Origin: Bolinopsis microptera
Lineage: Eukaryota; Ctenophora; Tentaculata; Lobata; Bolinopsidae
Assembly: GCF_026151205.1 (NCBI RefSeq)
Contig: NC_087076.1
Coordinates: forward strand, 23,492,828 to 23,556,827
Length of the DNA stretch: 64,000 bases
Reading direction: 5' to 3'
In this document: one piece after another, positions 9,639-61,057 of the stretch
Layout of the letters: the number at the start of each line of letters is the position of its first letter
How positions within the stretch are numbered: position 1 is the first letter of the stretch
Program-made: the position numbers and the translations under genes
Notes under the pieces: model-generated
What the model was told of the DNA's origin: nothing
The model's database searches: none
What the model saw: the letters and a program-made list of their open reading frames with translations, nothing else

Positions 9639-10274
9639 TCACATCTCTGTCTCGAGGGAATAATCTAGATCATAATCAAAGTCCTCCGGCAGAATTTTAT
9701 CCCACATGTAGGAGGTCAATTTGCTTTTGAACTCAGAAATAGTCTCTATCTCACGTATAGCTAGAGGAATATGATTCCATTTGGAATGGGTCCTAAAGTA
9801 AAAGTTCTTAGCAAAAGCGTTAGAGCTTGCTCGTGGTAAGATCGAGCTTACAAAACATAAGGGGTCCATGTGGCTATTTCTTAACCTTGAGTGGCCTTGA
9901 AATGGTTGCAAATATGAGGGTAAAGTGACAGGAATATGTTGCTTCACAATTTTAAAGAAGAAAATAAGCTCAAGAAAGTCGAAGCGGTCTTCTATGGGCA
10001 TAATCTTAAGCTGTCTGCATTTTTGAATGTATGTGGATGGTGGATAACTCATATACTCCTCGCGAAGAATCCACTTAATAGCACGCTTTTGGAGGCCCTC
10101 CAGCTTGCTTATCTGGGATTTGGTGACCGGTCTCCATATAACTGAGCAATGCTCAAATTGACTTCTCATTAAAGTGAGATACAGTACTCTACGACGATTT
10201 ACATCTTGAACAAAATAGCAATTTCTCCTTGCCATGCCTAATTTTTGGTTGGCCTTTGAAAGGACTTTAGATCA
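9639..10274 (-). pseudogene. LINE-B ORF2, C-terminal part
   Basis: The 198-codon frame starting at 10235 and its continuation up to a TGA at 10272-10274 encode the thumb and C-terminal region of the RT ORF. It aligns with LINE-A residues from about 760 on (RSQFEHCSVIW versus RSIFEHCSVIW, QKRAIKWI in both). The TGA is in the same frame as the next upstream segment, so it is a nonsense change rather than a frameshift. Confidence 0.8.
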
Positions 10275-11155
10275 CTGGTCTTGCCAGTCGAGATTCTTGG
10301 TCACAAAAACACCCAGATCCTTTTCATGATCGACATAGTCAAGTGCGATTCTTCCCATGGAGTATACAAAGTTAAAGAGTGGTAGGACACTAAGGAGGGA
10401 AACTGTCTCGGATATCCTTCCTGCGACGGTGAGGACCTTAAATTTATCGGGATGAAATCTCATTTTATTAGAAAGTGACCAGTCATGGAGATAATCAATG
10501 TCCTTCTGCAGTCGCAGGATATCAGACTCCGAAACAATCTCACGCCAAATTTTAGTATCATCGGCATACAGTGACAGTTGTGTGCCTGGTGAAATCCCCA
10601 CTGATATATCATCAATGAACATAATGAACAACAAAGGTCCCAAAATTGACCCTTTTGGTACACCAGATTGGGCGTTTCTCATGGAAGAAAATTTACCACT
10701 TATCAAGACCTGTTGTTGCCTGTCTCTTAGATAATCAGTGAGAAATTTCAGTAGCCTCCCATCAATACCAAATTTGCTCTTTAGCTTAAATAATTTAAGA
10801 TCATGGTTAACTAAGTCAAAGGCTTTGGCAAAATCAAAATAGACTACATCTGTTCTCATATTTTCATTCAGTGAGAGAGCTAGGCTGTCACATAGACCTA
10901 CAAGATTAGTTGCACATGATCTTTCAGCTCGAAAACCGTGTTGTTTATCGTTGATCATGTAAGTTAGTAAGTGCAAGTAACTCATCTTTAATTATGCGTT
11001 CAAGAACTTTGGTGATTAAGCATGTAAGGGATATTGGCCTATAATTTGAAACCTCATGTTTATCACCTTTTTTATATATGGGTACAACGTGTCCCAGTTT
11101 CCACTCCCTAGGTAATGTCCCAATGTTGTAACATGAATGAAATAATGTTACTATA
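10272..11155 (-). pseudogene. LINE-B ORF2, RT palm and fingers
   Basis: Two frames carry the RT core. The frame from about 11155 to 10945 holds the WKLGHVVPIYKKGD and NYRPISLT blocks. The frame 10985-10272 holds HGFRAERSC, FDFAKAFD, GVPKGSILGP and YADDTKIWRE. The catalytic aspartates are intact, but a frame break near 10980 separates the two blocks. The usual GVPQGS is GVPKGS here. The first ~40 residues of the open frame that extends to 11271 come from the inserted DNA, not from the element. Confidence 0.8.
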
Positions 11156-11188
11156 TATAAAGCGAGACGATATATATATATATCGATT

Positions 11189-11225
11189 AATACTTTCAAC
11201 ACTACTATATAACAAGTAATTTGAG
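11189..11225 (+). repeat. Empty copy of the LINE-D target repeat
   Basis: The sequence AATACTTTCAACACTACTA continues into TATAACAAGTAATTTGAG. The same repeat is seen uninterrupted on the - strand at 16669-16700. It is also seen split by LINE-D: left half at 54545-54565, right half from 61058. Confidence 0.8.
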
Positions 11226-11784
11226 AATTGATGTAAATAAACGATGCAAAGACTTTCGAAGATCTAATCACAACCGCTTTCTTTTATTGTGTAGAAGTCC
11301 AGCCATGAAATATATATATATATATATATTATGATTGGCTACTGGGACACGTCATACACACGGTTGGATTGTTAATTCGGTTGAAGTACCTTTACATCCA
11401 TTATCACCATAATCTGAACATGATTTATTAAAAATTTGCAATATCGAAAACGAAAAATCTGAATAAACTGAAAATTTTAAAACTGAAAGCTGCACTCAAT
11501 TGATGGAAGGCAAAAATTTACTCATAACTAGCAAGGTAATAACTACAAATGAACAGCAGATTTATAAATATCTCCGGGATTTCGACGCGGGATCATATTA
11601 TCACTCAGCCCGGCCCGCTGTTAGATAAACATCTCAAGGTGATATCATCCCGCCCCGGAAATTTGTATAAACCCGGCCCGCTTTTTAGTCGTAACTGATG
11701 TTTATCATTCAATTCTCCGACTTACAATAATCAATGATACTGCTGATTAGAACTCGATAATAGTAGAACAGTTAGACGCGCGAT

Positions 11785-11868
11785 CACGTGGGCGCGTCAC
11801 GTGCGTACCACGTGCCACCAATAGCATACGCCGAGTCTATACCACGTGACACGAAAGCGCACCACGTG
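11785..11868. promoter_or_regulatory. Cluster of five palindromic E-boxes (CACGTG)
   Basis: CACGTG occurs at 11785, 11798, 11809, 11843 and 11863. This palindrome is the established binding site of bHLH/bHLH-Zip proteins such as Myc/Max, USF and CLOCK types. Five copies within 84 bp are far above chance in such AT-rich DNA. Regulatory activity is inference. Confidence 0.5.
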
Positions 11869-12079
11869 ATATGAAACATCGTAACCGTCCACTTCTTTTA
11901 CACGCAAATTCCTGGGAACGTTGCCAAAGCAGCTAATTCTTGGAATTTCTCCAACGCGTGGCGTGAGAAGTTGGCGACTAGCCAGCTACCCTTGTCCGTG
12001 CCCTAAAAATAGTATTGTTTTGCTTGCTCTCCTTCCAGCTCTTGTTCCTGCATGCTAACGTTCAAGCTATTGCTCCACT

Positions 12080-12181
12080 ATGACAGATCGGTTTGACATT
12101 CAGATTGATGAACTGCTTTCCAATCGTGTTCTAAAGTATAAATCCCTTGTCGAAATCGCCGGAGATAATTATAATCCATAA
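12080..12181 (+). CDS. Short ORF downstream of the E-box cluster
   Basis: A 33-codon frame starts MTDRFDIQIDELLSNR and ends DNYNP. It lies about 210 bp after the last CACGTG and after a pyrimidine-rich stretch. The composition looks coding (acidic, balanced), so it could be the first exon of a captured gene or a spurious short frame. I do not recognise it. Confidence 0.25.
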   Translation: MTDRFDIQIDELLSNRVLKYKSLVEIAGDNYNP

Positions 12182-12539
12182 ACACTTCACGCTCAGGGCT
12201 AAATAAATGTAATCCCTCAGCTGGCGCTTCGGGATTACATATTAACACAAAACTCGTGCGCTGCGCGCACTCGTATGTGTTTATCAGATCATCCCGCTAG
12301 CGCGGGATGATCTGTTATATAAACCCTTTGCGTGGCGGGTTTATGTTATTATAAATCTGCTGATAAAAATTAGATAAAAGACATGGTAACTGATAAGAGT
12401 TTGAAATTACACGTAAGCAGATAAATTGTCTAAAATTTCTGTCTCAAATCAAGTTTATAGTGCATCATGAATTTAGGCTTGTTCGATCAAAGTTATATTA
12501 GGAGATATTAGGAAAATAGTATATATATATATTTATCTG

Positions 12540-12811
12540 TGCCATTTTACTGACACCACGGCATCAACTTTAACACGACTTTCCGCAAAAAACCTTAAAA
12601 GATATACAACTGAAACTTTTTTGACTGGGTCAAATGCTTTAATGGCCTTCAAATCAGCATGAAAAAATAAAAAATTGGCCAAGAAATAGGAGTTTTAGAG
12701 CCCAAAATTTGGACCCCCAAGTGGTGTCAAAAACGCGAATTAAATAGGTAATAATTATTTAGTCTCTTGAGTCTTGACACCACTTTAGGGTTAGACGGGT
12801 TCCTACTAGTA
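12540..12811. repeat. Dispersed repeat, family 2, copy 1
   Basis: This matches the reverse complement of 48414-48640 over most of its length. Shared segments include TTTTTTGACTGG, GGCCTTCAAATCAGCATG, GTGGTGTCAAAAA and GGGTTCCT(A/G)CTAGT at the end. The homology stops exactly where LINE-B coding sequence begins, so this marks one border of the insertion. No coding sequence was seen. Confidence 0.65.
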
Positions 12812-13130
12812 GTGATAATGGGTATGCAAGCCCAACAGCACAGTTTTTCAAAAGTTTCCCATGAATACCATCAGGCCCATAAGCTTTGTTAGGGTTAATA
12901 TTGGAAAGGATTTTGCGAACCCTTTGGTGGTCAAATGCAATATCAAAGCGCCAATCGTTTGAATAATCAATATCTATGTCGTATAATGATGCTTCAGAGA
13001 ACTGCTCGAAGAAAAAGCCATTAAATAAGTTGGCCTGGTCCTCTGGGCAGTTGCGGAAAATGCCTTTGTAGCTTACAAACTCAGGAATTCTTTGACTAGC
13101 TGTTTTTGATTTTACATATGACCAGAATTT
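12811..13130 (-). pseudogene. LINE-B ORF2, linker to RT N-terminus, out of frame
   Basis: Read on the - strand in the frame shifted after a run of eight T (13124-13131), this encodes the continuation of ORF2 (KKFWSYVKSK, then FFFEQFSEASL, then NPNKAYGPDGIHGK). It aligns with LINE-A residues about 380-475. The homopolymer length change explains the break from the upstream frame. In the conserved APGPDG motif, Ala-Pro is replaced by Ala-Tyr. Confidence 0.75.
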
Positions 13131-14622
13131 TTTTTGTTACAATTAGAGCGCTATCATCTGATTCATTTAATGTTTCTCGCATTTTTTGAGCAACCACATT
13201 TTTGAAGTTTTTCCTGGCAAGGGAGAACGCTATTTGGGCTCTATCGCTTTTATGTCTATCTTTATGCAGTCTTATTTTCTTGCGCCATGCATCATAGCAC
13301 TCTGAGTCAAACCATGGATCTTGTCCATCTGTCTTAACTGAGCATTTCTTGATGAATTTGTCAGTGATATTGAAAAGTTTTTCCTTAAATTTTTTCCACC
13401 CAATTTCAGGTTCTGTGCCACTAAGCAATGCATTCCAGTCTGTGTGCCGGAGTTCATGGTTTAGCCTCTCCCAGTTCACGTTTTTATAGTTATAGCACAT
13501 ACGCTTAACCGGCTTCTTCCTATTTACCTTAATGTTGATCTTAAAGTTGATTGGAAAATGATCAGACTTACAGACGCTATCTCGCTCACCTACCATTAGG
13601 TCACTGATATTAGAGTCAGAGTTTGTGAGCAAAAGGTCCAGTGTTTTGCCTTTGCAATGGGTGGGTGTAAGTACACATTGCCGAAGGCCAAGGTCTACAA
13701 AAGATTCAACAAAAATCTGCTCAATAGGACAGGAGCCGGCCAAGGTAGACCAGGAGACTCCAGTCAGGTTGAAATCTCCTAGGATAAATACTTTGCTTAG
13801 CCCTCTTCTCCGAAGAAGAGTTTTCAGAGATCCAAGAATTTTTTCATGATTTGCAAAGCCCAGTGTACCAACACGATAACATGTACAGATAACAAATTTA
13901 ATGCCCGTTGATGTTGTAAACTCCACAGCAAGAATCTCAGCCCCCTCTTTAAGTCGGATTTCTTTCGAAGATAATTGAAGGTCTGCTCTCACAGCAATCA
14001 TGAACCCGCCACCATTTCTCCTAAACCGGGTCGGATTAGAGGGATCAGGTGGATGAGTTTTCTTAGATCTGTCAGAGCGAAATATCTTATATTTATCAGG
14101 GTGCAGGAATTCGCTATCAGCTATGGAGTTTTTAAACCAAGTTTCGTTAAGTATTGCAATATCTATATTTGCCTCATTAAAATAAGTTGAAAGCTCAAGA
14201 CATTTGGTGTTATCAAGCATTGGGTGGGCATTATTAAGCTCACCGAAGGGAATAAGGCCTTGAACATTCTGAAAGTAAACATTCAATACCTTACTATTCC
14301 CCAACCTAATATCTATAAGAGGGGGTCCTGGGTTTACGATTCCAGGATTTACAAAAACTATCAAAATACCATTCAACAAGAACAACCAAATTATGCATCC
14401 AGTTAGTGCAAAACCAGCTCTACCAGTAGATAAAAAGTTTAAATTCCTATAAATTGTAACATGGCAGAAATTGTAAAGGCCGTCGAAACTATAATCATTC
14501 CGGAAATAATACATATTTGCTAAGTGTAGAAGGAAATATACAGTAAAATATCGGCACAGGTTAGGCACTGGATATGTTGGTACAAAGGCTCGGCAATCAT
14601 ATGTGACTCTAGAAAAAGCCAA
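13096..14622 (-). pseudogene. LINE-B ORF2: N-terminus and APE endonuclease
   Basis: The 508-codon frame has a hydrophobic N-terminal region (about 70-91) followed by VNPGIVNPGP at 91-100, then an APE-type endonuclease from about 110 to 340. The endonuclease shows NVYFQNVQGL with the metal-ligand Asn, NETW, RRNGGG, GDFNLTGVSW and the terminal SDHFPINF. The hydrophobic stretch followed by NPGP resembles the 2A-like sequences known from several APE-type LINEs, but the preceding D-x-E is not present. The first Met at 14622 is arbitrary; translation could start later. The frame is lost at 13096 by the T8 slippage. Confidence 0.8.
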
Positions 14623-14839
14623 CCCACTAACCCCCGCACTAGTGATGATGATGAGTGAGAAATGGCATATGAATAAAACATAGAATATATATAAAAAGAA
14701 GCTAGGATCAATGCAGCTGTCTAAAATGTCAAAGATACTACCTGTACCACGTCTACGGTAATTTACAGGTAAGTATACTTGCCAGACTACATCTGCATAT
14801 AACTAGCTATACAAGGTCCATAATACAGCTCAGGTTAAA

Positions 14840-15841
14840 CTATTGATATACAAAGGGATTAAAATATCTACTGTGTATGGCACGAATATAAGACCTAGCC
14901 AACACCCCCATTCCTTTCTGAGGATTAGGGTGAATACCATTGCTCTCAAATAACGGGTCAAATCTCCTAACGGGTTCCTTATAAGTTCTCTTGAATTTAG
15001 TGAAGGGATAAAAGACATCCATAAAGAAGAACATCCTGAATACACACTCATTATATAAAATCCTATTAAAGTCTATTATCCTCTTGTTAGTTAATCTATC
15101 ATCATCAGACGTTAAGGGTAATGGCAATAAAGATTGAACATAAACCTTACAATAAGGAATTAATTGGCATATCTTACTAAAGAGTTGCTTCAGAGGCCCT
15201 CTAACTATGCCTACATCGTCTACCCGTCTAATATCGTTCGTACCAACACTAATTAAAAGTTTATCAACCTGAACATCGGGATGTGCAGCAGAATAGTCCT
15301 CAAGCTGCTTCTGGACCTTGTCCATCTTTGCTCCACCTTGTGCAACATTATCGACTTTGACTTTCCCTTTTCCCAGCTTGTCCGAGTCCAATCTCTGAGC
15401 AAAAGAGTCTCCAGCAACCAACGTGACTTTCTGCACAGGTTCTTTGACTTTAATGCCACAAGCAGGTGTACTAGTCTCACTGGCACTGTTGGTTTCAGAG
15501 CTGGCCTGGCTGCCAGTTTTCACGATTGCGCGAAAAGACAGGGAGTATCGCACTTGGTCTTGACCATCCTCCTTCGTACCAGTAGCCAGCTCTGCACGCA
15601 CCGCATGCTTCAGATTCTGCTGTGTCCCAGGCCTCATTACGACAAGGCTGTTGTTCTTCATCCTTATCGCTTTGGCACATTTAGGATTCTTCTTTGTACC
15701 CTCGTAAAACTCAAGTGTCCGTTCACACCCCAGGGAGAAAGAGCATATCGATTTCTCCTGGTCGATGAGTGTCTCGTCGTCACAGTGTAACGAGGTGCTG
15801 GACTGGTTGTTATTGTACTTGATCACCAGACAGGAGTCCAA
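14840..15841 (-). pseudogene. LINE-B ORF1, AlkB core and SGNH hydrolase
   Basis: The 333 codons carry the second half of an AlkB-like domain and a complete SGNH/GDSL hydrolase-like domain. AlkB hallmarks are H19 and D21 (HCD followed by DE), FSLG, H79 and R98-x5-R104 (RYSLSFR). SGNH hallmarks are GDS (144-146), GTND (200-203) and NGIH (301-304), with the catalytic Asp of DxxH replaced by Asn. The segment between (105-137) is Ser/Thr-rich and looks like a linker. SGNH esterase domains in ORF1 are known for CR1-type LINEs; an AlkB domain beside it is unusual. The N-terminal part lies in another frame (15810-16208), so this copy is broken. Confidence 0.8.
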
Positions 15842-16208
15842 AAGGTCCAGTTATCTCTGTGCTTGAGTTAACGAGACTCAGCAGCCTTTTGAAGTTAGGG
15901 AAACTACTGATATCCTGTGGTGAGTGTACTGGGTTTGTGTCCGGGTACGTATAGGCCTGATCCTGCGAGCATAACCAAGCGGTTTGAGCCTTGTTTCTCC
16001 CCCCAGTGTTCATCTTCAAGGACCCACACTCCACCCATACTGCATCAAGGAGGACATCATCACCACAGAAGTCCTCTAGGTGCAAAACAAAGTTGTCCAC
16101 CTTTCCCTCACGCTTAGGGAGCTCGTTCTGGACACAGTTGAGGATATTTTGCAGATCCTCAATTGAAGCAGCTTTAACATAGTCGAAAATCTCTTCAAGG
16201 TTTATCAT
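15810..16208 (-). pseudogene. LINE-B ORF1, N-terminal part
   Basis: The frame from the Met at 16208 (MINLEEIFDYVKAAS) encodes a predicted helical start, then the first strands of the AlkB domain. The motif AYTYP and the FKRLLSLV helix align in position with YRYGS and the IFTNISNAL region of LINE-D ORF1. It goes out of frame around 15815-15840 just before the conserved strand leading to HxD; a small indel near a CCTTTTGG stretch explains the break. The open frame extends upstream to 16286, but the MINLEE start is more natural because the upstream residues are unlike ORF1. Confidence 0.7.
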
Positions 16209-16668
16209 TATTATCAGAGATTGTCGAGTCTGGCAGCAAAGTTTGCCAGGGAACCATCCATAACACCCCAGAGTAGGCAACCACACACAACACTAAACAC
16301 TACCTGAAGGAGAAAGGGCAAGAGAAAATGGGTAATGGTACAAGTGGTTCTAGGTAAATTTTGCCAAGCGTAAGTAAATTTTGCCAGTGAAACTTTAGCT
16401 AGAATAATGATAAGAGGGGCAATAATCAATATCAGAGTTGTAAATGTGTGACTAACATCAATCATGTTATCATTGAAAGCAAAATTATGGATAAAATCAA
16501 AGTAAAAGATCAGCTTACAGCGTGTTTGAGGGCGTTGCTGCCCAGTGCAAGCACTGGGCGAGAGGAGCCTAACTCAAGGGTGAACTTCAGGAACCCCAGC
16601 GTACCCGCATACCAGGAGATCGGCTGTACTTCCTACCCCGTCATGCCATCGTACATGCCTAAATTTTT

Positions 16669-21149: not shown

Positions 21150-22847
21150 GATTTTGTTGTAGAACTGCATCTTGGTTTGCGATCCCAGGTCCACCCTCCA
21201 GTCATTGATAAAGACATCCCTCATGGTGCCATGAGCTGCTTCTGTTTCATAATGAGCCACAGAGCTAAGTTTCTCGTACCAGGAGAGGTTAAGATTTTTC
21301 TGTTCCTGAAACGCTTGAGATACTAAAAAATTGACACTGTTCGTCTCAGAAGAAGCTCTGGAAAGTCTTCTAAAGTATCTGAGGCATTGTGGCAGAACTG
21401 AGAGGGCCCAGGGCATCCTTCCTGTATCCCCGTAACTTGTGCACACCCAGTACCCATTTGAGCATTTTGAGGTGTGTTGTCTCAAGAGTGTCTTTTGCTG
21501 CAACTTTTGATAGGTTGTGTCTTTGGCTGGGTTCACGCGCCATTTCTTTCATGAGGTGAGTCGAGGGTAGCCATATCTGACAGGCGTAAGTTGCTACCGG
21601 TTTCACCAGATAGTCAATTAGCTTTAGCATGGTTTTGGTGGTCAGAGCTCTGGTGTCTACCATGCGTTTTATCGAAAAGAATGCTCGAAGCGCCTTCTTC
21701 CTCAGTTCGTTCATGGCGCATTTAAAAGATCCATTGAGGCTGAGCTGGATACCTAAATAGCAGTAGGACCTTGTTGGAGAGATGTCGAGCTGTCCAAGCT
21801 TGAACCCGTACGAGCAGTTTAGCACCCGCGAGCTTGAGTTGAAGACCATTATTTTAGTCTTATCAATGTTGATAGATAGCTCCCATTTGTTTGCAAAATC
21901 ATTTAGGCAGTTAAGCTCTTTCTGAAGGCTTTGGTGGTCAAGAGCTAAAAGGATGAGATCGTCGGCCCAGAGCAGGTGGTTGACTGGGAAGCCATTAAGT
22001 TCAGGGACAGAGAGATCTTCTAGGGCTGCTAGATGGATGGAGAGGTCGTAGATGTATATCTTAAACAATTCAGGAGACATTGGATGCCCCTGCTCTGTTC
22101 CAATGGTGACATCAATGGTCTCCGATAGTTTTTGGATCAGTTTGATGCGGGTCACCGAGTTGCTGTACATGTTCTTAAGGCAAGCGAAGAAGTTCCCTCC
22201 GATACCAAGGTGATTGAGCTTATACATGAGTGCTTCTCTGCACACCGTATCGAACGCTTTCCGGTAGTCAACAAAACAAGCAAACACTCTCTTTTTGAGC
22301 TTTTTCGTGTATTTCTCAATGATTGTGGTAATTGTAAGGATGTGATCCGAGCACTGTGCACCAGCTCTGAAGCCAAGTTGGTGGGGGAAATCGGGGCAGA
22401 TAACTTTGCGGAAGTCGATAAGTCTTTCAAGGAGAACAGAAGCAAATAGCTTCCCTAGACAGCTTCCAACAGTTATCGCCCTGTAGTTGTCAGGGTTCTG
22501 TTTGTCGCCCTTCTTGTGGAGAGGGGTGGTTATCGAACAATTCCATGGGTAAGTCCCCTGTTCCAGGCAGCCGTTGAACAACTTGAGAAGAACTTTCCTT
22601 AGGCAAAGTTTGGAGTTCTTGAGCATCTCGTTCGATATTAGGTCCAGTGATACGCTCTTGTTGTTTTTGAGTTTGTTGATCACCTTTTCAAGCTCTTGTA
22701 GAGTGAACTCCATGTTAAGATTTTCCACTTCAGTTGGTAGGTCAGGGTGGCTGCTCCCATCATTGCTTGCGTTGTGGGCTTGAAGTTCACGGTGGGATGG
22801 ATCCTTGCACTTTTGGTTGTAGAGGTCGTTGAAGAATTTGTGAAAAG
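21150..22847 (-). pseudogene. LINE-C ORF2: reverse transcriptase
   Basis: The 452-codon frame beginning at 22728 is open further upstream to the truncation point near 22847 (HKFFNDLYNQ). RT blocks are HKKGDKQNPDNYRAI, LGFRAGAQCSDH, the catalytic FVDYRKAFD (D154), EQGHPMSPELF in place of the usual PQGS, and WADD at 254-257. A frame break near 21400 moves the C-terminal part into another frame (21126-21536), which ends at the SINE. No endonuclease is present, because the element is 5' truncated. It cannot be active. Confidence 0.85.
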
Positions 22848-24984: not shown

Positions 24985-25974
24985 ATGAAGTACGAAAATT
25001 ACACAAGATTTGGAATTCATGACAAAGCTGAAAGGTATGTTCTCTCTGCATACACGTCCTTCATTTTCCTATCATCCCTGATAGGAGACACCCTCATCCT
25101 CATTGGCTCTATGAGGTACAACGCTATAAAGCTTCACAAGATAATGGTGGTATTCATCCAGTACATTGCTGTCGCTGATTTGGTCATCTCCATCGTTAGA
25201 CTCCTGCCTGGTGCAGTTTCACTTGTTGCCAATGTCTGGGTCTTCGGTGACTTCCTTTGCTCTGCAGGATTCTTCATTTCGGGCAGCTTTGGGGGAACAA
25301 TCGCTCTTCTCATCGGTGCCCTTACATTTGCCAAGTTCCTGATCGTGAAATATCCACTGAGAGCAGTTCATTTTTCAAAGAGAGCAGGTCATCTGACGAC
25401 CCTGGTCATGTTTTCATGCATGTCTTCTTTTGGAGTGCTCGTGGCTGCCGAAAAGGGTGCTTACTTCAGCTACGTGAGCTACAATTGCGACTATGCACTT
25501 CCAGCTGATAAGTCCAAGATTGATTATGTCTTTGGAGTAGTTATAGGAGGAGTCGGACTCATCACTACAGGGATCATCACAGTGAGCAGCGTTATGCTAC
25601 TATTCCTGGCAAAAAAGATTGCAGATAGAAGAGCTGGAGGTCTCCAATGGCAGGGGATCAGAACGGTCCTTCTCACTGTGGTGGTTTATGCCATAGCAAC
25701 TGTCCCGTTAATTGTTAACCTATTTGAACATCCAAAAAACCAGCCAGAGTCTACTCCGACTTCCTACATTGCATATACTAGGTTTGCAATGTTCATATTG
25801 TATCTGCAAGCCCCTGCTAACTTCTTCATCTACACAGCCAGTCTCACCAGCTTCCAGGAGTTCCTGAAGTCTAGGATCAGGGTGGTTTTTGCTTCCATCA
25901 GGAGACGTTTTGTTTCCAGCGGAGATCAGCGCACCGCTCAGCAGGCGAGAGAGCGAGATAGACTACTGCCTTAA
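24985..25974 (+). CDS. Rhodopsin-class G-protein-coupled receptor 2
   Basis: A single-exon frame of 329 residues has seven hydrophobic segments, at about 20-43, 52-76, 92-119, 137-155, 182-209, 225-247 and 262-285. N5 (NYT) is a possible glycosylation site. C92 at the top of TM3 and C168 in the second extracellular loop can form the usual disulfide. TM2 keeps D65. As in GPCR 1, TM1 has GDT, the first cytoplasmic loop has YNAIKLHK, the DRY motif is missing (AKFLIVKYPLR) and TM7 has APANFFIY rather than NPxxY. The C-tail is short and basic. An AATAAA follows near 26131. The two receptors are paralogues in a probably expanded, lineage-specific family; ligand unknown. Confidence 0.88.
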   Translation: MKYENYTRFGIHDKAERYVLSAYTSFIFLSSLIGDTLILIGSMRYNAIKLHKIMVVFIQYIAVADLVISIVRLLPGAVSLVANVWVFGDFLCSAGFFISGSFGGTIALLIGALTFAKFLIVKYPLRAVHFSKRAGHLTTLVMFSCMSSFGVLVAAEKGAYFSYVSYNCDYALPADKSKIDYVFGVVIGGVGLITTGIITVSSVMLLFLAKKIADRRAGGLQWQGIRTVLLTVVVYAIATVPLIVNLFEHPKNQPESTPTSYIAYTRFAMFILYLQAPANFFIYTASLTSFQEFLKSRIRVVFASIRRRFVSSGDQRTAQQARERDRLLP

Positions 25975-27495: not shown

Positions 27496-28785
27496 GTGCA
27501 CCCCCGAAAAAAAGCCGGGCATCCTCAGAACAAGCCCGTGATGATGGTGATTTGGGTTAATGAAGATGTAACAGATTCCGGAACTATGGGAGCACCATCT
27601 GTCATCTTTCCGTTTTATTTACTGTATGTGGGAACATCTACTGATGAAGTAGCTATCAAGAGAGCCATTCCAGTGGCGCAGGTGGCTCACGTGTCACATA
27701 GCCAACAGAAAAGAAACATGATGAATAGTTCTTACAGCACTAGGGTATCAGCCCCTACTTTTGTTTCTGGACGTGAAGGTGGTAATGATTTCACCAACTT
27801 AAATCCGAATGGAAGGTTGGTGAATGATGAGCCTAATCAACCTGAAACACCCAACATAAACGAAAACAACAAAAAAAGTTTATTTTCATGTACCGACATT
27901 ACCTGGGTAGGCACTCTTAACACTAGAACGATAAGAACTGCTCAGAGGAAACTGGAGATGGTACATCTTTTCGAGAAGAGTGGAGCAGAGATTGTAGGTA
28001 TCCAAGAGCACAGGATAGTCCATGAAGAGCCTGTCAAAGTAGAGAGAGTTGGCAAGAGCAGCTATCTAATTACTTCATCAGCTACTAGGAATCGGGCCCA
28101 GGCAGCAGTGGGCGGAGTGGGATTCATCCTAACTAGCAAGGCATTTGACGCAACTACGGAGATAACACCAGTAACGGAGAGAATCCTTAAGATATCTCTA
28201 AATGGTAATCCTAAACCAACCTTCGTCTGTGTCTACGGACCTACGGAGGCAGATAGTGTAGAAGCAGCAGAGAAGTTTCATACCGATCTAAGGTGTTGTG
28301 CAGTCTCACAGATCCCTGCTCACAACTTCTTGGAGATGATTGGGGATTTTAACGCTCACCTATCAAAGAGGGACGAGAATGACTTTGGTTGGTATTTCCA
28401 TGAGAGAACCAACAGAAATGGGGAACTGCTTCGGGATACTGCCCTGGAATGTAATCTGGAGATTACAAACACCAGGTTCAGAAAGAAGCGGGGTAAGATG
28501 TGGACTCACCTATCGGATGGAACCCTGAATAAGTCTCAGTTAGACTTTATTCTAGTGAGGAAGAAGTGGAGGAACAGTGTCAAAAATACTGAAGTCTACA
28601 GCTTCTTTAGTACACTGGGTACTGATCATAGACTTGTTTTGTCTAAGATCAAGCTATCTCTTCGACGAGCAAAAAAGCAACCCAAGAAAACCTGGTATAA
28701 TTGGGGAGCACTTAAATCGGATGAAGACCTTCAGAAGAGATATGCGGTAGAAGTCAAGAATCGGTACTCTGCTTTATGCGGGTGA
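27496..28785 (+). pseudogene. RTE-clade LINE, endonuclease part
   Basis: The 429-codon frame encodes an unrecognised N-terminal ~130 residues and then an APE-type endonuclease of the RTE style, about residues 133-400 (WVGTLNTRTIR, IVGIQEHR, VYGPTE, MIGDFNAHLSKR, SQLDFILV, GTDHRLVLSKI). The metal-binding and catalytic residues Asn, Glu, Asp/Asn and the terminal Asp-His are visible. The frame ends at 28785 by a small frameshift near 28775; the downstream frame continues directly with GDQRVQSVRTAL. The true start of the protein is unclear. Confidence 0.8.
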
Positions 28786-28801
28786 TCAGCGAGTTCAAAG
28801 C

Positions 28802-30487
28802 GTGCGTACAGCCTTGCAGCAAGCAGAGACTGTCTATCACCGGGATCCTAGTGAAGACAGTCGACTGTCTGTTAAGCTACTAAAAACTGAACTGGATCAG
28901 GTGTACCAGGACATCTTTGAAGAAGATCTAGTTGCCAAGGTTAGAAGGGTCGAAATGGCTGCAGACAGATGCAAAAACAAAGAAAGTTGGAATGTCATTA
29001 ATGAGATAACTGGCAGGAAGGCCAAGGGGGCAACTCAAATAAGGGGCAACGGAGCCGAAGAAAGGAAGAAAAATTGGCTTGGGCATTTCACGAATCTATT
29101 AGGGAGTATACCGGATGTGGAAAACGAGCATCCTAGGATCATGAATCAATTTGAAGGACTCAGCATCAGTACAGAACCTTTTACTGTGGATGAGCTTAAA
29201 GCTGCTAAACACAGGATAAAAGAAGGTAAAGCACCAGGTGATGACGGCATACCACCTGAAGTCCTCAAAAGATGCGACCTGGATGAAATCGTGCTGTCAT
29301 TCTGCAACAAAGCCCTGACAGATGGTATTGCGCCAGATCAGTGGAGGATAAGTAACATCATCCCGGTCCCCAAAAAGGGAGACTTGACCAACCCTGGAAA
29401 CTGGAGGGGGATATCTTTGACTTCTCTCGTAGCTAAGACTCTTAATAGAATGGTGCTTAATAGGATCCAGCCGGCTATAGAGGGGGTACTTAGGGACACT
29501 CAGAATGGTTTTCGGGAAGGACGGTCCACTACTAGTCACATCTTGGCACTCAGAAGGATTCTAGAGGGGGCTAGACAGAGAAATTTACCGGTAGCTATGG
29601 TGTTTGTTGATTTTAAGAAGGCCTTTGATTCACTTCACCGGGGAATTTTTATGCAAATACTTAAGGCCTATGGAATACCGGACAGTATTGTAGATATCAT
29701 TAATCTTCTCTATGTCAACACGAAGGGCAAAGTTATAACACCAGATGGGGATACCGAGCTATTTGATATCCTGGCAGGAGTTCTTCAAGGGGATACATTA
29801 GCACCATACTTGTTCATTATAGCCCTTGACTATTGCATGAGACAAGCCTTAAGCAAGCATCCTGAAATAGGATTTACCATTAAGCCTTATCGGAGTAGGA
29901 GAGTCAAGGCGGAGAAGATAACAGACACTGGTTTTGCAGATGACATTGCTCTGATAGCAGATACTGTAAAGGAGGCAGAGATGCTGATGCTAGAGGTAGA
30001 AAGAGTTGCTGCTACAGTGGGACTTAAAATGAACGAAGGGAAAACCAAATTCATTACTCAGAACATCGAGAACCCTGATACCATCAAGTCCCTGGGTAAC
30101 AACACAATAGAGCACGTGGAAGACTTTACCTATCTTGGTTCTAGAATCAGAGACAGTGAGAGTGATATCAGGGTTAGGAAAGGAAGAGCATGGGGAGCAT
30201 GCCACACTCTCAAAAAACTTTGGAAATCTAACCTTAGAAAGTCTATCAAGACCAGAGTGTTCACAGCACTAGTCGAGTCGGTGCTTCTATACGGTTCTGA
30301 GACTTGGACTATGACGAAAAGGCTGGAGAAGATGGTTGATGGTTGCTATACACGAATGTTAAGAATGGCCCTTAACATCAATCAATATCGAGACCATGTC
30401 AGCAACCACAGTCTGTACGGTGATCTTCCTAAAGTCAGCTCCAAGATAACCCAACGAAGGCTCAGACTTGCAGGTCATGCTCACTGA
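28802..30487 (+). pseudogene. RTE-clade LINE, reverse transcriptase
   Basis: The 561-codon frame holds the RT: KAPGDDGIPPEVLK, VPKKGDLTNPGNWRGISL, NGFREGRST, the catalytic FVDFKKAFD, AGVLQGDTLAPYLF and GFADD (FADD at 378-381). After this come the RTE C-terminal blocks TYLGS, YGSETWTMTK and RRLRLAGHAH. A TGA at 30485-30487 interrupts it; the same frame stays open afterwards to a TAA at 30689-30691 and encodes the usual C-terminal RTE block (GRPYLTLLDNLK, DTGLKSVDEIARLM). The copy therefore has one frameshift and one nonsense change and is probably inactive but young. Confidence 0.85.
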
Positions 30488-54544: not shown

Positions 54545-54565
54545 AATACTTTCAACACTACTATA
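54545..54565 (+). repeat. Left half of the LINE-D target repeat
   Basis: AATACTTTCAACACTACTAT ends where LINE-D starts. The continuation expected from the copies at 11189 and 16669 (TATAACAA...) appears instead at 61058, beyond the other end of LINE-D. Confidence 0.8.
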
Positions 54566-54616
54566 CTCCTAATATGGACTTCATCTCTTCGGACCCCGGG
54601 CTGCCAGGTAGTGGTG

Positions 54617-54905
54617 CAGTGGCGTAACGAAAGGCCCTGCTGACCCCGCTGTGCAGGGGGGCGCCGTCTTAGGGGGGCGCCAAATCGTTGTTTGAATGTG
54701 GGACAATTTCGAAAACTTAACTAAAGTACTAGCAAAACTGCGCGTTTTGCTCTATATACACACTTTTTTAGAGATTTTACCGGCGTATTCTTTAAAATCA
54801 CCTAATTTGTTCAATTTTAGGGAGGGGCACCAAAAAGGGAGGGGGCGCCAACAGGGGGGCGCTTTTTTCGGCAGGGGGGCGCCAACAGGCAACGTTACGC
54901 CACTG
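54617..54905. mobile_element. hAT-type MITE with 8-bp duplication
   Basis: CAGTGGCGTAACG (54617-54629) and CGTTACGCCACTG (54893-54905) are perfect terminal inverted repeats. TAGTGGTG lies directly outside both ends (54609-54616 and 54906-54913). An 8-bp duplication and CAGTG-type ends are characteristic of the hAT superfamily. The inside has several GGGGGGCGCC repeats and no transposase. It sits in the 5' region of LINE-D, upstream of ORF1, so it arrived after LINE-D did. Confidence 0.92.
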
Positions 54906-54966: not shown

Positions 54967-56586
54967 ATGTGCGTTATAAGTACTCAAACAGACATAACAT
55001 TTGGACAGTGGCTTCCTACCCTGTCACCTAAACTATGCCTCGATCTGTTCGAGCACGTTAAGGATGAGCACATGGCGCACGAAATCTCCTACAACAATTC
55101 ACTGGGAATTGATTTAGGGATTAAATCCAACACTAAGGTTTCAAAACGTAAAGTTCTATTGAAACAAAAACTGGAGAACGATTGTAAAAATGCTAACTTT
55201 ATCAATTCGTTTACGGTAGATGTTGCCAAAATAGATTCATTAATGAACCATTTTTCCGGTTTGCTGGAGAAGGCAGAAACAACACTAGAGGACTACAAGA
55301 CAGAAGTTCGGAGAACAACCGCAGACTGCATCGGAAACAGCGCACTCCCTTCTGCTCCAGCCCCACAACAGTTAGTGATTAGCCCACCCTCCGCAGCTCT
55401 ACCTACTCCGGTATGTAATCTAAGTGTGAACTTTAATGACATTAATTGGATGGACATCTGCAAGAGCATGAACTTCCGCAGAATCGCATCCCGATCCGTA
55501 CAGTACTTTGGAGCAACAGATTACCGCTATGGGTCGACCGTGCATCATTCCAGAAACTATCCTCAGAACTCCGTCATTGACCACATTTTTACAAACATTT
55601 CGAATGCATTAGATGACCCTACGTTTAATAAGGAGCAGGTAACTTGTCTAATCACCAAATATGAAAACGGCAAGTGCCACATACCCTTCCACAGTGATGA
55701 TGAAAATGAGGTCACTGGTGACATCATTACACTCAGTCTTGGGGCCTCTAGAGACCTAGTATTTCGTAGCAAAGTCGGTCCGGTCAAACAACAGATCCAC
55801 AAACTTGACCATGGATGTGTGTATGTGATGACACGTGAATCACAGAATTTCTGGGAGCATGGTATATTGCCACAACCAGAAACTCAGGACTGCAGAATAT
55901 CGCTTACGTTCAGACGCCTCTCTCAGAATACCCCCCCTCGCAAAAAAATCCCGAGGATCCACGAACCGATTCATAAGCCTACGGTTACTGAGCAGTCTCA
56001 ACCTAAGGAGCGTCTATTATTCTTGACGGACTCGCTTCTCAGAGATGTCCCTTTTGACCTTCCTAACGTACACTGCATCAAACGCGAAATGTACCAGTTA
56101 TCCAAAATTTTAGATCACGAACAATATATTTCTGGCTCTAAAATTGTCATAATTTCTTCTGGTATAAACGATTTATCTCGCTATGACCACCACCACCACT
56201 CCCTTTCATGTGATTTTAAGAGAAATATTGATTATCTAATTGAGAAATATCCTAACACGACTTTTATATTTAATTCTTTAGTTCTCACACGTTTCTCGTG
56301 GCTTAATGAGGAAGTTAAGCATTTTAACAGCTTTATTTTTGAACTAAGCAATAGAGTGTCCAAGCTATGGTTCTTTGACTCGCACCATATTTGTACTGTT
56401 TTATACCAGAGAAGAGAGGTCATTGTAGATCCTGGTGGAAACGGAATCCACCTAACAGTCATGTCCAAGAGAGAGATAGCTCGCTCTCTTGTTACCTGTG
56501 TCAAAGAATTTATGGGGCGCAGCTACTTAATTCGAAAACACTGGCCGCTAAGACGGGAGTATGTTTCTTCATTGGGCAGACCTTAG
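54967..56586 (+). CDS. LINE-D ORF1: AlkB dioxygenase-SGNH hydrolase fusion
   Basis: The 539 residues have an N-terminal ~145-residue region with possible helices (about 80-118), then an AlkB-like domain (about 155-320) and an SGNH/GDSL hydrolase-like domain (about 345-515). AlkB hallmarks are H242 and D244 (FHSDDE), SLGASRDLVFR, H298 (FWEHG) and R310-x5-R316 (RISLTFR): the Fe(II) triad and the 2-oxoglutarate-binding arginine. AlkB proteins remove methyl groups such as m1A and m3C from DNA or RNA, and viral members act on RNA. SGNH hallmarks are TDS (354-356; Gly of GDS replaced), GIND (399-402) and NGIH (492-495; DxxH Asp replaced by Asn, though D488 is near). The start at 54967 is the first Met. 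ORF1 proteins normally bind the element RNA; dealkylation of that RNA is inference. Confidence 0.85.
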   Translation: MCVISTQTDITFGQWLPTLSPKLCLDLFEHVKDEHMAHEISYNNSLGIDLGIKSNTKVSKRKVLLKQKLENDCKNANFINSFTVDVAKIDSLMNHFSGLLEKAETTLEDYKTEVRRTTADCIGNSALPSAPAPQQLVISPPSAALPTPVCNLSVNFNDINWMDICKSMNFRRIASRSVQYFGATDYRYGSTVHHSRNYPQNSVIDHIFTNISNALDDPTFNKEQVTCLITKYENGKCHIPFHSDDENEVTGDIITLSLGASRDLVFRSKVGPVKQQIHKLDHGCVYVMTRESQNFWEHGILPQPETQDCRISLTFRRLSQNTPPRKKIPRIHEPIHKPTVTEQSQPKERLLFLTDSLLRDVPFDLPNVHCIKREMYQLSKILDHEQYISGSKIVIISSGINDLSRYDHHHHSLSCDFKRNIDYLIEKYPNTTFIFNSLVLTRFSWLNEEVKHFNSFIFELSNRVSKLWFFDSHHICTVLYQRREVIVDPGGNGIHLTVMSKREIARSLVTCVKEFMGRSYLIRKHWPLRREYVSSLGRP

Positions 56587-57068: not shown

Positions 57069-60000
57069 ATGGTAGTTATCCGAAGTAGTAAAAATAGCTG
57101 TAAGGCCTGTGCAAAGCGCCTAGTCTCACACAAGGTAAGCATCACTTGTAGTATTTGTTATACGACATATCACCCAAAATGTGCTCACCTAACACCTAGC
57201 GACATAACTGAACTTACTGGAGAATGGTCTTGCTACAGCTGCATTTCAGAAATTCTTCCAGTGGGTGCCGTCATGCCTCTATCACCATCACGGCCTATAC
57301 AAATCCAAGTCTCCAATAAACGAGAAAAATGTCACACTTGCACAAAAATTGGGAATATAAGACAAATGACCAAATGTTGCTACTGTGACAACCTATCCCA
57401 CACAAGATGTTCTGCTGGCTCAACAGGCTGCAAAGATTGCTTGGGAAAAATTTTCCCAGCATACGATGTCTCCATTAGACAGCTTCACATGATAAATTTC
57501 AGTAACACTATTAGGTTTAACCCCTTTAATCGCGACCACCTATCAAATCAAATAGGTGATCATGATGATACTGATGCTGATTTGAATCCATGGGAAACAA
57601 CGTCTAGTCTTCTAAATAACTGCAAATATTATACCGCGAACGCGATCAAAAATACGAAGGAGTATGAATTGAAAGTTTTCTCGCTAAACGTTAGGTCACT
57701 TAATGGGAAAATTGAAGAATTTCGGGAGAATATAGATCAATACACAAAATACGACGTTCTCTGCTTCAATGAAACAAATTGTAACACGGAATGTTTGCCT
57801 TTTCAGGGAGAGGAGCTCGAACTAGACGGTTTCTATCCACCGTATGTTCAGACTCCCGCTAGAGCGTCAAATCGTGGTGGAGGATTAGTCATATATGTTA
57901 ACAAAAAACTATGTGAATTATCTGACATAAACGTTAAGAGCGCTCTATGTTGCCACGATAATCCTAAGATAGGAGAATTCTTGGTTGCAGAACTTACCTT
58001 GAAAGGGCACAAAAACGCGTTAATCTGTAATATATATCGCTCTCCAAGTGGGGACTTGAATGGTTTCCTTGAACAATTGAAAATTTTCCTCCGTAACTTA
58101 GCAAGACATCGAAACAAAAATATCATACTGGCCGGTGATACTAACATAGACCTACTAGATTACGGGAGAATAGACTCTGTTACTAAGTATGTGGACACTT
58201 TAGCAGAGCACGGATTCGCTCCTGTGATATCAAGACCAACTAGAGTCACAGATCACAGTGCGACTATCATTGACCATATTTTCGTCAATAATTGCCACGC
58301 TGTTACAAAATCGGGAGTAATTTCTGAATCAATCTCTGACCACTTGGCAACTTTTGTCACAATTATGGTTGATCAGAATAGGCTCAGTTGTAAACTTCAA
58401 GAAGATACAACAGAAACATCTTCTCGAGTAATAAACGATGACAGCATCAAAAAGTTCGAGAACGACATTTCTGCCGTAGACTGGAACTTGGTTAATAACT
58501 ATGATTCTGCAGATGAAAAATTTGAGGCTTTCGAGAAAAAATATAGTGAACTATACGACCGAAATTTCCCAATGAAGGCAAAAAAGAGTAAACCAGGCCG
58601 CCGTAAAAACACAAAGCCGTGGATCCAAGAATGGTTACGGTGCGCATGTGATCGCAAAAATAAATTTTATGAAGATTTTGTCACAAACCCGACCACTGAA
58701 AATGATATTAGGTACAAGAAAATGAAGAAATTTGTGAATAAACACGTGGATAAGGCCAAAAACAAATATTACAACGCATACTTTACAAAATATTCTAGCG
58801 ACAGCAGAAAACAATGGCAAATGGTTAATAACTTGTTAAACAGAAAGAAAAAAGGCAAAATCAAGATAAACAAAATTAACTATAATGGGAGCGAGATAAC
58901 AGATTCTCAGCAAATTGCGAATAGCTTCAATGACTATTTCTGCAATATAGCTGAGACTCTTAAGAGAGAAAATGGTCTCGTATGCTCCGAGGGCCGGACT
59001 ATCGTAACAGAAACTCAAGATAGCAAATGCCAGCGGAGCATGAATCTCGAAGACTCGTCCGCATCAGAAATAATTGAAATAGTTAAGGGTCTGAAGATTA
59101 AGTCGACTTCTGATATGAGTATACTTCCCCTGAAAAAAGTGAGCAATATACTTGCGCCAGTGCTTAGCTGCCTAGTCTCTGCTTCTCTACATCAGGGGAA
59201 GTTTCCACATAAATTGAAAATCGCGAAAGTAATTCCACTTCACAAAGGTGGGTCACGTGCTGAAGTTTCAAACTATCGACCAATCTCACTACTTTCGTGT
59301 TTCTCAAAAATCTTTGAAAAAATTATGCAAGCGCGACTATTAGATCACTTAAAGACAGAGAAAATCCTATTTGACTCTCAATACGGATTTCGAGCTGGAC
59401 ATAGCTGTGAACATGCTTTACTAGAAGCCCAAAACCATATCCACAGGGCACTAGAAAAAAAGCAGGTCACAGCACTGCTTCTATTGGACTACAGCAAGGC
59501 CTTCGACATGGTTGACAGCAGTATTCTTCTGAGAAAACTTGAGCACTATGGAGTTCGGGGATTGGCTTTATCTTGGTTTCACTCATATCTTACCGATAGA
59601 GAGCAATACGTGAGCGTCAACAACTGCAAGTCCTCTCACCTCAAACTTAACTACGGAGTACCACAGGGCTCCATTCTCGGACCAATTCTGTTCATAATTT
59701 ACATCAACGACCTTCCTCAGATTAGTAATTTAGCTAAACATATTTATTTCGCTGACGACGCAAACCTAATAATAAGTACAGATACATTTGAACAACTTAA
59801 TGCAATGGTGAATGAGATTCTGACTTTGATAATTGATTGGGCTACTAATAACGGGCTTAAATTAAATGCTAGCAAAACTAAATATATGATCTTTACAAAT
59901 AAGAAAACTGAGGATATAGAAATTTACATGGGAGGTGAACGATTAAAGCAAAGTGATCACGAAAGGTTTCTTGGCGTGATCATTGATACCAAGCTAAATT

Positions 60001-60680
60001 GGGCCCACCACATTAGACATTTAGCCACTAAAGTATCTAGAAATGCGGGCATACTCTACAAACTCAAAGGCTCTGTACCTAACAAAGCACTCAAGTTGAT
60101 ATACAACAGCTTTGTTCAGTCTCACTTGTACTACTGCTGCACAGTTTGGGGAACAAGATCGCTAAACTCCGTTAAAAGAGTCTTCTCGGCCCAGAAAAAG
60201 GGCATTCGCGCTGCAGATAACCAATACCACCGCTATTTTTATGACAAAGATCTGAACAGTACACCTTCACACACAAAGGAAATTTTTAATAAACTAGAAG
60301 TATTAGCTTTACCGAACGTGATAGCTAAATGTATATTATGCTTAATGCACAAAGTTTATTCTAACACTGCACCACCAAATATTAAAAGAATGTTCACTGT
60401 TTCAAACTTAAACGCACCTAGAAGAGAACCTGAGTTCTTTGCAGTACCATTTAACCGTTTATGTAATTCAGACAAGAGCATTTCTTACATTGGGCCTAAG
60501 TTATATAACAAAACAGTCAACATTATTAACAAGGACATAAAATATGTCACGACTTGCCTACAAGACAAATTCCTAAATTCATTCAAGTCTACAGTCAGCA
60601 AGCATGTGCTTACTGCACAAGCACTTAACCCGGATGACAAGGACTGGAACAACTCAAATTTCGTACTTTTAGAAATTTAA
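57069..60680 (+). CDS. LINE-D ORF2: PHD fingers, APE endonuclease, RT
   Basis: The 1203 residues are uninterrupted. A PHD-type finger is at 11-58 (C11, C14, C27, C30, H35, C38, C55, C58), and a second Cys/His finger is at 88-124. The APE-type endonuclease spans about 202-430: N208, E235 (FNET), Y323 (IYRSP), D357 and N359 (GDTNID), D402 and the terminal D424-H425. The reverse transcriptase spans about 715-975: NYRPISLLS, YGFRAGHSC, the catalytic D807 (LLDYSKAFD), GVPQGSILGP and FADD at 894-897. A ~200-residue C-terminal domain follows. All catalytic residues I can check are present. Together with ORF1 this could give a complete retrotransposition machinery acting by target-primed reverse transcription. 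Confidence 0.92.
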   Translation: MVVIRSSKNSCKACAKRLVSHKVSITCSICYTTYHPKCAHLTPSDITELTGEWSCYSCISEILPVGAVMPLSPSRPIQIQVSNKREKCHTCTKIGNIRQMTKCCYCDNLSHTRCSAGSTGCKDCLGKIFPAYDVSIRQLHMINFSNTIRFNPFNRDHLSNQIGDHDDTDADLNPWETTSSLLNNCKYYTANAIKNTKEYELKVFSLNVRSLNGKIEEFRENIDQYTKYDVLCFNETNCNTECLPFQGEELELDGFYPPYVQTPARASNRGGGLVIYVNKKLCELSDINVKSALCCHDNPKIGEFLVAELTLKGHKNALICNIYRSPSGDLNGFLEQLKIFLRNLARHRNKNIILAGDTNIDLLDYGRIDSVTKYVDTLAEHGFAPVISRPTRVTDHSATIIDHIFVNNCHAVTKSGVISESISDHLATFVTIMVDQNRLSCKLQEDTTETSSRVINDDSIKKFENDISAVDWNLVNNYDSADEKFEAFEKKYSELYDRNFPMKAKKSKPGRRKNTKPWIQEWLRCACDRKNKFYEDFVTNPTTENDIRYKKMKKFVNKHVDKAKNKYYNAYFTKYSSDSRKQWQMVNNLLNRKKKGKIKINKINYNGSEITDSQQIANSFNDYFCNIAETLKRENGLVCSEGRTIVTETQDSKCQRSMNLEDSSASEIIEIVKGLKIKSTSDMSILPLKKVSNILAPVLSCLVSASLHQGKFPHKLKIAKVIPLHKGGSRAEVSNYRPISLLSCFSKIFEKIMQARLLDHLKTEKILFDSQYGFRAGHSCEHALLEAQNHIHRALEKKQVTALLLLDYSKAFDMVDSSILLRKLEHYGVRGLALSWFHSYLTDREQYVSVNNCKSSHLKLNYGVPQGSILGPILFIIYINDLPQISNLAKHIYFADDANLIISTDTFEQLNAMVNEILTLIIDWATNNGLKLNASKTKYMIFTNKKTEDIEIYMGGERLKQSDHERFLGVIIDTKLNWAHHIRHLATKVSRNAGILYKLKGSVPNKALKLIYNSFVQSHLYYCCTVWGTRSLNSVKRVFSAQKKGIRAADNQYHRYFYDKDLNSTPSHTKEIFNKLEVLALPNVIAKCILCLMHKVYSNTAPPNIKRMFTVSNLNAPRREPEFFAVPFNRLCNSDKSISYIGPKLYNKTVNIINKDIKYVTTCLQDKFLNSFKSTVSKHVLTAQALNPDDKDWNNSNFVLLEI

Positions 60681-61057
60681 ATAATTTGGTACAACATACG
60701 TTGATAATAACGAGCAACAAAACTTTAACCTCATAACGAAATATGACTATCTTCGAGCATTTTCTACAATGCTATCGCTACCGCGCAATTTCACTGTCAT
60801 TTACAAAACAAAAATATCACCGCGCATTCTTCAGACCCTGTGTCGCTGTTCTAAATTTATGTCAAGAGATAAGAGTTATTTAGAAATTCTTAATAGTAGT
60901 ACTATTCAAATTTGCTAATAGCGTAATCATATTTTATACATTATTCATATTTTATACATTGTGTGCATATATTTATATTTGATTGTAATTAAAGATTTTA
61001 AGGCGTTAGTGCCGAGTAATGCCTCTGGGTAGTGCTCCTCAATCAATCAATCAATCA

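Follow-up and report, generated by a model that had tools for sequence, protein, structure and literature searches.

What is an AlkB-type dioxygenase, an enzyme dependent on 2-oxoglutarate (2OG) and Fe(II), doing in the first open reading frame (ORF1) of a long interspersed nuclear element (LINE)? The question is raised by a 64,000-nucleotide stretch of the ctenophore Bolinopsis microptera (NC_087076.1, positions 23,492,828 to 23,556,827 of the forward strand; hereafter the window), in which an earlier note, made from the letters alone, had read an AlkB domain fused to an SGNH hydrolase in one frame (54967-56586) upstream of an intact LINE ORF2. All of the motifs named there are present in the 539-residue translation (P0001), and both the domain matches and the predicted folds support the fusion. 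ORF2 (57069-60680) is indeed uninterrupted and encodes an APE endonuclease and a reverse transcriptase (RT). The frame is therefore the ORF1 of an APE-type LINE, here called element 1, and consists of an N-terminal helical, possibly coiled-coil region followed by an ALKBH2/3-like dioxygenase and then an SGNH fold. We regard the identity of these two domains as virtually certain.

The Pfam model PF13532 (2OG-FeII_Oxy_2) matches ORF1 residues 182-316 with an E-value of 1.6e-20 (74.6 bits against a cut-off of 31.2). A search of the PDB with the single ORF1 sequence returned ALKBH2 (2.5e-9), ALKBH3 (3.2e-7), and E. coli AlkB (4e-6), while a profile of the aligned relatives (A1, described below) returned ALKBH3 (1.4e-26), ALKBH2 (7.5e-24), ALKBH8 (1.2e-7), and AlkB (1.2e-6); the best two scores, 97 and 88 bits, belong to ALKBH3 and ALKBH2, with ALKBH8 at 34 and AlkB at 31. 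Because the Pfam and PDB sequence and profile matches are significant, a chance motif match was rejected. In the alignment, H242, D244, E246, H298, R310, and R316 of ORF1 correspond to ALKBH2 positions 171, 173, 175, 236, 248, and 254. The earlier note had staked its reading on a match to the 2OG-Fe(II) fold that brings the metal-binding residues together; the fold match of the predicted structure is strong, and H242, D244, and H298 align to the ALKBH2 metal ligands, which makes them the putative ligands of ORF1. By these comparisons the domain is ALKBH2/3-like, nearer to ALKBH2 and ALKBH3 than to the remaining AlkB homologues whose structures are known, and its active site appears competent. 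Its likely source is a captured host ALKBH2/3 gene.

Among the structural matches listed, the closest folds to the AlkB domain are DNA-bound ALKBH2 and ALKBH3 structures, with 22-25% identity over the structural alignments. These neighbors lend some weight to an alternative in which the substrate is alkylated DNA, repaired by the domain in the course of target-primed reverse transcription on the exposed single-stranded target or on new complementary DNA (cDNA). We hold this to be distinctly unlikely, given that LINE RNA is the presumed cargo of ORF1 proteins (PMC3905857) and that a lesion would need to be frequent for its repair to be helpful.

To place the AlkB residues in context, we compared ORF1 with its relatives, judging conservation at the protein level; no DNA relatives were obtained from viral contigs searched with P0001, A1, and A2 (the alignment of a second family, see below) or from genome contigs searched with A1 and A2. 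P0001 has 94 protein matches at E <= 1e-3, and PF13532 is shown for 90 of them. The last 10 of the 94 (P0086-P0095) cover 19-56% of the query, are possibly other AlkB proteins, and were excluded from residue counts. Removal of 21 short or distant matches left P0001 and 73 relatives in the family-1 alignment A1 (n = 74), where Pfam identifies PF13532 in 74/74 members and PF13472 in 38/74 at E <= 0.01. All five AlkB residues (H242, D244, H298, R310, and R316) are intact in every one of the 74 proteins. In a wider alignment of 95 rows, counted over P0001-P0084 and leaving out the other 11 rows, H242 and D244 are retained in 83/84 (one gap each) and H298, R310, and R316 in 84/84. The position of E246, the Glu following HxD, is likewise Glu in 80 of the 84 family-1 rows with letters. 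Mean top-residue frequencies in family 1 are 0.54 for the AlkB domain, 0.53 for the SGNH domain, 0.40 for the N-terminal region, and 0.43 for the linker, and the catalytic residues stand out against this drifting background.

The earlier note had spotted the AlkB-SGNH design at one locus; element 1 bears it out, but a second such LINE in the window had been missed. This second LINE (element 2) lies at 9639-16286 on the minus strand and is degraded, with extra DNA at ~11166-12807 parting its RT section from its endonuclease section. The C-terminal piece of its ORF1 shares 26% identity with element 1 ORF1 (E 8e-7) and belongs to a second family, of which 81 proteins were aligned (A2). In family 2 the AlkB residues are intact in 78/81 proteins, the mean top-residue frequency of the AlkB domain is 0.60, and the counterpart of E246 is Glu in 103/103 rows. 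Comparison of A1 with A2 by hhalign gave a probability of 99.8 (E 2.8e-30) over 356 columns running from AlkB through SGNH. With the RT of another LINE in the window (3852-6467) the element 2 RT shares 50% identity, as against 31% with element 1 ORF2. A homologous fusion is thus found in two LINEs whose RTs have diverged, so the AlkB-SGNH arrangement probably arose a single time, at an early date, and has been retained since.

The joint conservation of the two families bears on whether the chemistry of the AlkB domain matters at all. The domain could be a nucleic-acid-binding module only, standing in for an RRM, with oxidation irrelevant to transposition; neither an RRM nor a CCHC was detected in ORF1 by Pfam, and the 2OG-site NxY motif is substituted, as described below. 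Against this, all five catalytic residues are retained in 152/155 aligned proteins of both families together, compared with the domain mean top-residue frequencies of 0.54 and 0.60, and we consider a binding-only role improbable.

Further evidence that ORF1 and ORF2 belong together comes from beyond the window. Among the best 120 of 143 relatives of element 1 ORF2, one, P0294, also carries PF13532. P0294 is the hypothetical protein ACHWQZ_G001240 of the ctenophore Mnemiopsis leidyi, encoded on a 13-Mb contig, with AlkB at 145-277 and endonuclease matches at 522-742 (PF03372) and 635-745 (PF14529). Pfam gave no SGNH call in P0294 at E <= 0.1; a stretch of it aligns to the element 1 SGNH domain, including the TDS, GIND, and GNGIH motifs. 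Because P0294 matches both ORF1 (56% over 449 columns) and ORF2 (66% over 518) of element 1, its gene model, as aligned, covers ORF1 and part of ORF2 of a single LINE. In P0206, a family-2 AlkB-SGNH stretch is joined to an endonuclease of the element 2 lineage, which matches 3852-6467 and 13096-14622 at 38% each and has no match to element 1 ORF2 at E <= 0.01. Judged by these alignments, the window elements, P0294, and P0206 each match within lineage: in both of the cases observed for each family, the ORF1 is accompanied by an ORF2 of the corresponding lineage. An ORF1 match (P0022) and an ORF2 match (P0243) also come from contigs of equal length (7438), a coincidence that chance may produce, and this pair was not counted as linkage. 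Retrotransposons are known to pick up host sequence, and the association might in principle reflect chance capture of a host gene fragment or an assembly chimera. The same domain order in the 73 aligned ORF1 relatives and the 81 family-2 proteins, the same association on the M. leidyi contig, and the presence of two RT lineages refute this, leaving it a negligible probability. A host ALKBH gene merely lying beside a LINE was also rejected, as AlkB is in the same frame as SGNH and has many relatives so arranged.

The C-terminal domain of ORF1 has an SGNH fold in the predicted structure, and its Pfam SGNH hydrolase match (E 0.0036) lies under the cut-off. The Ser, GxN, and His residues (S356, G399, N401, and H495) are present in all 73 family-1 rows with letters (1/74 is a gap), and the same residues are retained in 80/81 family-2 proteins. 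The A2 profile matches the esterase of the zebrafish ZfL2-1 ORF1 protein (4c1b, E 6e-7), thereby connecting the SGNH domain with the esterase-type ORF1 already known. With the A1 profile alone, 4c1b was not listed at E <= 0.01. It is also not among the 50 structural matches shown in either listing, both taken up by AlkB and SGNH entries, but this absence is no evidence against a relation to ZfL2-1. The Pfam model OSK, the SGNH-derived domain of Oskar, matches 31/81 A2 members at E <= 0.01.

How might such an ORF1 serve the element? AlkB, ALKBH2, and ALKBH3 reverse 1-methyladenosine (m1A) and 3-methylcytidine (m3C), and both modifications block reverse transcriptases. We propose that the ORF1 protein (ORF1p) would coat the element RNA and that its AlkB domain would strip from it the Watson-Crick-face methyl groups (m1A, m3C) that halt reverse transcriptases, whether deposited by the host or arising from damage. 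Demethylation would keep the template readable for ORF2p and might extend to the target DNA or the new cDNA. The SGNH domain would most likely mediate contact with membranes or lipids, as has been proposed for the ZfL2-1 esterase, an enzyme with ester-hydrolysing activity and affinity for negatively charged lipids (PMC3905857). We give this mechanism as a whole an even chance of being correct.

A different substrate is a serious rival. The AlkB domain may erase N6-methyladenosine (m6A) from the element RNA, allowing it to evade host readers that silence or destroy m6A-bearing transcripts, and the AlkB of an orchid Gypsy element does act on m6A in vitro (PMC9289625), for which reason this possibility has to be taken seriously. 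In sequence and structure the domain is nearest to ALKBH2/3, and it retains the Glu that ALKBH2 has after HxD. Moreover, L1 retrotransposition is reported to be promoted by the m6A writer METTL3 and suppressed by the eraser ALKBH5 (PMC7873242), so that the direction of any benefit from m6A erasure is unclear. We consider m6A erasure unlikely and, based on the retained Glu and the ALKBH2/3 affinity, favor m1A/m3C-type substrates over m6A for this domain.

Several observations weigh against the proposed demethylation mechanism and its lipid-interacting partner domain. The Asn of the NxY motif in the ALKBH2 2OG site is replaced in family 1 (Thr in 69 and Asn in 7 of the 81 rows with letters), and family 2 has mostly Leu, Ile, Thr, or Ser at this position. 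As a result, binding of the 2OG cofactor could differ, while the metal ligands are all retained; it is also because this Asn is not kept that we term the domain ALKBH2/3-like instead of ALKBH2 or ALKBH3 proper. Three of the 81 family-2 proteins (P0153, P0193, and P0197) fail the AlkB residue count. In the SGNH domain, the Asp position three residues before the His is occupied by Asn in 77 and His in 5 of the 82 family-1 rows with letters, and by mostly Asn, Gly, or Ser in family 2. Furthermore, the block II Gly is absent in family 1, where Gly reaches at most 11/74 in any column between the Ser and GxN (357-398); family 2 has it in 79/81 and 81/81 proteins at two adjacent columns. The corresponding residues of ZfL2-1 are G165 of block II, in the oxyanion hole, and the catalytic pair D279/H282 (PMC3905857). 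With both the Asp and the block II Gly missing, hydrolysis by the family-1 domain appears doubtful; it seems more likely in family 2, where the block II Gly is kept, though the Asp is not. The SGNH hydrolase of the earlier note therefore holds as to the fold and the Ser/GxN/His residues, with its activity in doubt, and since the block II Gly was not found, we file the family-1 domain as SGNH-fold rather than as a proven hydrolase. Finally, both AlkB-SGNH copies in the window are damaged, element 1 by the splitting of its ORF1 and element 2 by a frameshift; undamaged relatives include P0003 and P0102.

The state of the element 1 copy also qualifies the view of ORF1 as one open frame (Table 1). 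The 539-residue AlkB-SGNH frame stands; what had been overlooked is a 289-bp insertion splitting ORF1, which, from its 8-bp duplication, we take to be a hAT-like miniature inverted-repeat transposable element. P0002, a relative at 86% identity, has an N-terminus (MDILSSDSGLPGSG) that resembles the MDFISSDPGLPGSG frame upstream of the insertion. Given the insertion and the upstream ATG at 54574, ORF1 probably did not originally begin at 54967, and this copy, as read from its sequence, yields a shortened ORF1p at best. The best relative of its ORF2 is 93% identical across the full length. The 3' end of element 1 probably lies near 61057, in ATCA repeats at which no poly(A) was seen in the sequence.

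Table 1. Features of the two AlkB-SGNH LINEs, in window coordinates.
Feature	Position	Strand	Basis
Element 1: ORF1 5' piece with probable original start codon, MDFISSDPGLPGSG	54574..54616	+	separate translation; N-terminal likeness to P0002 (MDILSSDSGLPGSG)
Element 1: insertion splitting ORF1, 289 bp, inverted repeats CAGTGGCGTAACG, 8-bp target duplication TAGTGGTG	54617..54905	.	sequence inspection
Element 1: ORF1 remainder (P0001), 539 residues, AlkB-SGNH	54967..56586	+	open frame and domain search
Element 1: long N-terminal helix, ORF1 residues 77-117, candidate coiled coil	55195..55317	+	AlphaFold2 secondary structure
Element 1: AlkB-type 2OG-Fe(II) dioxygenase domain, residues ~143-320 (H242, D244, H298, R310, R316)	55393..55926	+	
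Element 1: SGNH-fold domain, residues ~346-516 (S356, GxN glycine G399, N401, H495)	56002..56514	+	
Element 1: ORF2, 1203 residues, uninterrupted: PHD-like zinc finger, APE-type endonuclease, reverse transcriptase	57069..60680	+	
Element 1: PHD-finger-like zinc finger, ORF2 residues 11-58	57099..57242	+	PF00628 E 0.00039, 20.8 bits, under cut-off 24
Element 1: APE-type endonuclease, ORF2 residues 205-425	57681..58343	+	PF03372 E 1.7e-14
Element 1: reverse transcriptase, ORF2 residues 733-972	59265..59984	+	PF00078 E 2.9e-38
Element 1: ATCA-type tandem repeats, probable 3' end	61040..61057	+	read from sequence
Element 2: ORF1 N-terminal piece, other frame, frameshift within AlkB	15810..16286	-	resembles N-termini of P0096 and P0099
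Element 2: AlkB-SGNH ORF1 C-terminal piece, 333 residues	14840..15841	-	PF13532 3.2e-14 and PF13472 5.9e-12, both over cut-off
Element 2: ORF2 endonuclease part	13096..14622	-	PF14529 4.6e-11
Element 2: ORF2 RT part, two frames (10272-10985, 9639-10235)	9639..10985	-	PF00078 5.5e-19 on 10272-10985

The sequence ATACTTTCAACACTACTATA occurs in three identical copies in the window, at 54546 (+), 16698 (-), and 11190 (+). Two of these are found upstream of the AlkB ORF1s of elements 1 and 2, and the third lies close to an edge of the DNA that interrupts element 2 ORF2. It looks like the end of a further mobile element, in which case the 5' untranslated region of element 1 may be missing. Additional LINE ORF2 remains are found at 3852-6467 (+), 21370-22728 (-), and 27496-30487 (+), the first sharing the element 2 lineage and the other two being more distant. 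The window also contains two single-frame genes for rhodopsin-type G protein-coupled receptors (7tm_1), at 7926-9083 (-) and 24985-25974 (+), as would fit an animal host.

Among known systems, element 1 most closely resembles LINEs of the CR1, L2, and RTEX groups with an esterase-type (type IV) ORF1, such as ZfL2-1, in the position of ORF1, its N-terminal helical region, and its C-terminal SGNH domain (PMC3905857, PMC4120745). Its SGNH-bearing ORF precedes an ORF2 with APE and RT, and homology to 4c1b is established by way of family 2. Unlike type IV ORF1s, it carries AlkB ahead of SGNH, and family 1 is without the catalytic Asp and block II Gly; for these reasons we file it as a variant of the esterase type. 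ORF1 types described in the literature contain RRM, CCHC, PHD, coiled-coil, and esterase domains (PMC4120745, PMC3905857), and the main texts of these two papers make no mention of oxygenase, AlkB, 2OG, or demethylase. Within the Jockey superfamily, PMC4120745 reports having found esterase ORF1s in vertebrate groups only.

Other mobile genomes carry one domain or the other. Orchid Ty3/Gypsy elements encode an AlkB-type protein, but there it is an additional ORF of a Phalaenopsis long terminal repeat (LTR) element, reported as a recent acquisition (PMC9289625), whereas here it is part of a LINE ORF1, fused to SGNH, and found with two RT lineages. The AlkB domains of plant RNA viruses likewise travel with a mobile RNA genome, share the HxD, H, and RxxxxxR residues (PMC544882), and are among the structural matches; they differ in lying within replicase polyproteins that involve no reverse transcription, and the available text of that paper mentions no SGNH (PMC544882). 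Animal ALKBH2 and ALKBH3, the nearest in PDB fold and sequence, have the same metal-ligand and arginine residues but are host repair enzymes, and their NxY Asn is mostly not kept in the LINE families. Bdelloid rotifer retroelements encode an SGNH enzyme (GDSL/SGNH ORF3, PMC5408684) but are LTR elements, and the main text of PMC5408684 is without oxygenase, AlkB, 2OG, or demethylase. A tubeworm paper (PMC9921365) concerns host ALKBH2, not an element. Consistent with the earlier note, which was aware of no well-described LINE of this kind, no AlkB-bearing LINE appears among the titles and abstract openings listed in literature searches on AlkB or 2OG together with retrotransposons or transposons; Repbase or Dfam may contain such a consensus. 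The AlkB-SGNH ORF1 design thus looks real and undescribed within the literature searched.

Some annotated invertebrate 'AlkB' genes may accordingly be LINE ORF1s, the M. leidyi model P0294 being one. We tentatively suggest, at somewhat less than even odds, that these elements represent a class of animal LINEs whose ORF1p joins a demethylase for RNA to a lipid-interacting SGNH domain; the demethylase would clear RT-blocking or silencing methyl marks from the packaged RNA. Such a class would be ancient, with at least two RT lineages, and would imply that RNA methylation has served hosts, ctenophores included, as a defence against LINEs. An active AlkB domain would give a non-LTR retrotransposon an eraser of nucleic-acid methylation of its own, an animal parallel to the AlkB of orchid Gypsy elements and plant viruses, and the question whether RNA base methylation or alkylation limits LINE replication would become open to direct test.
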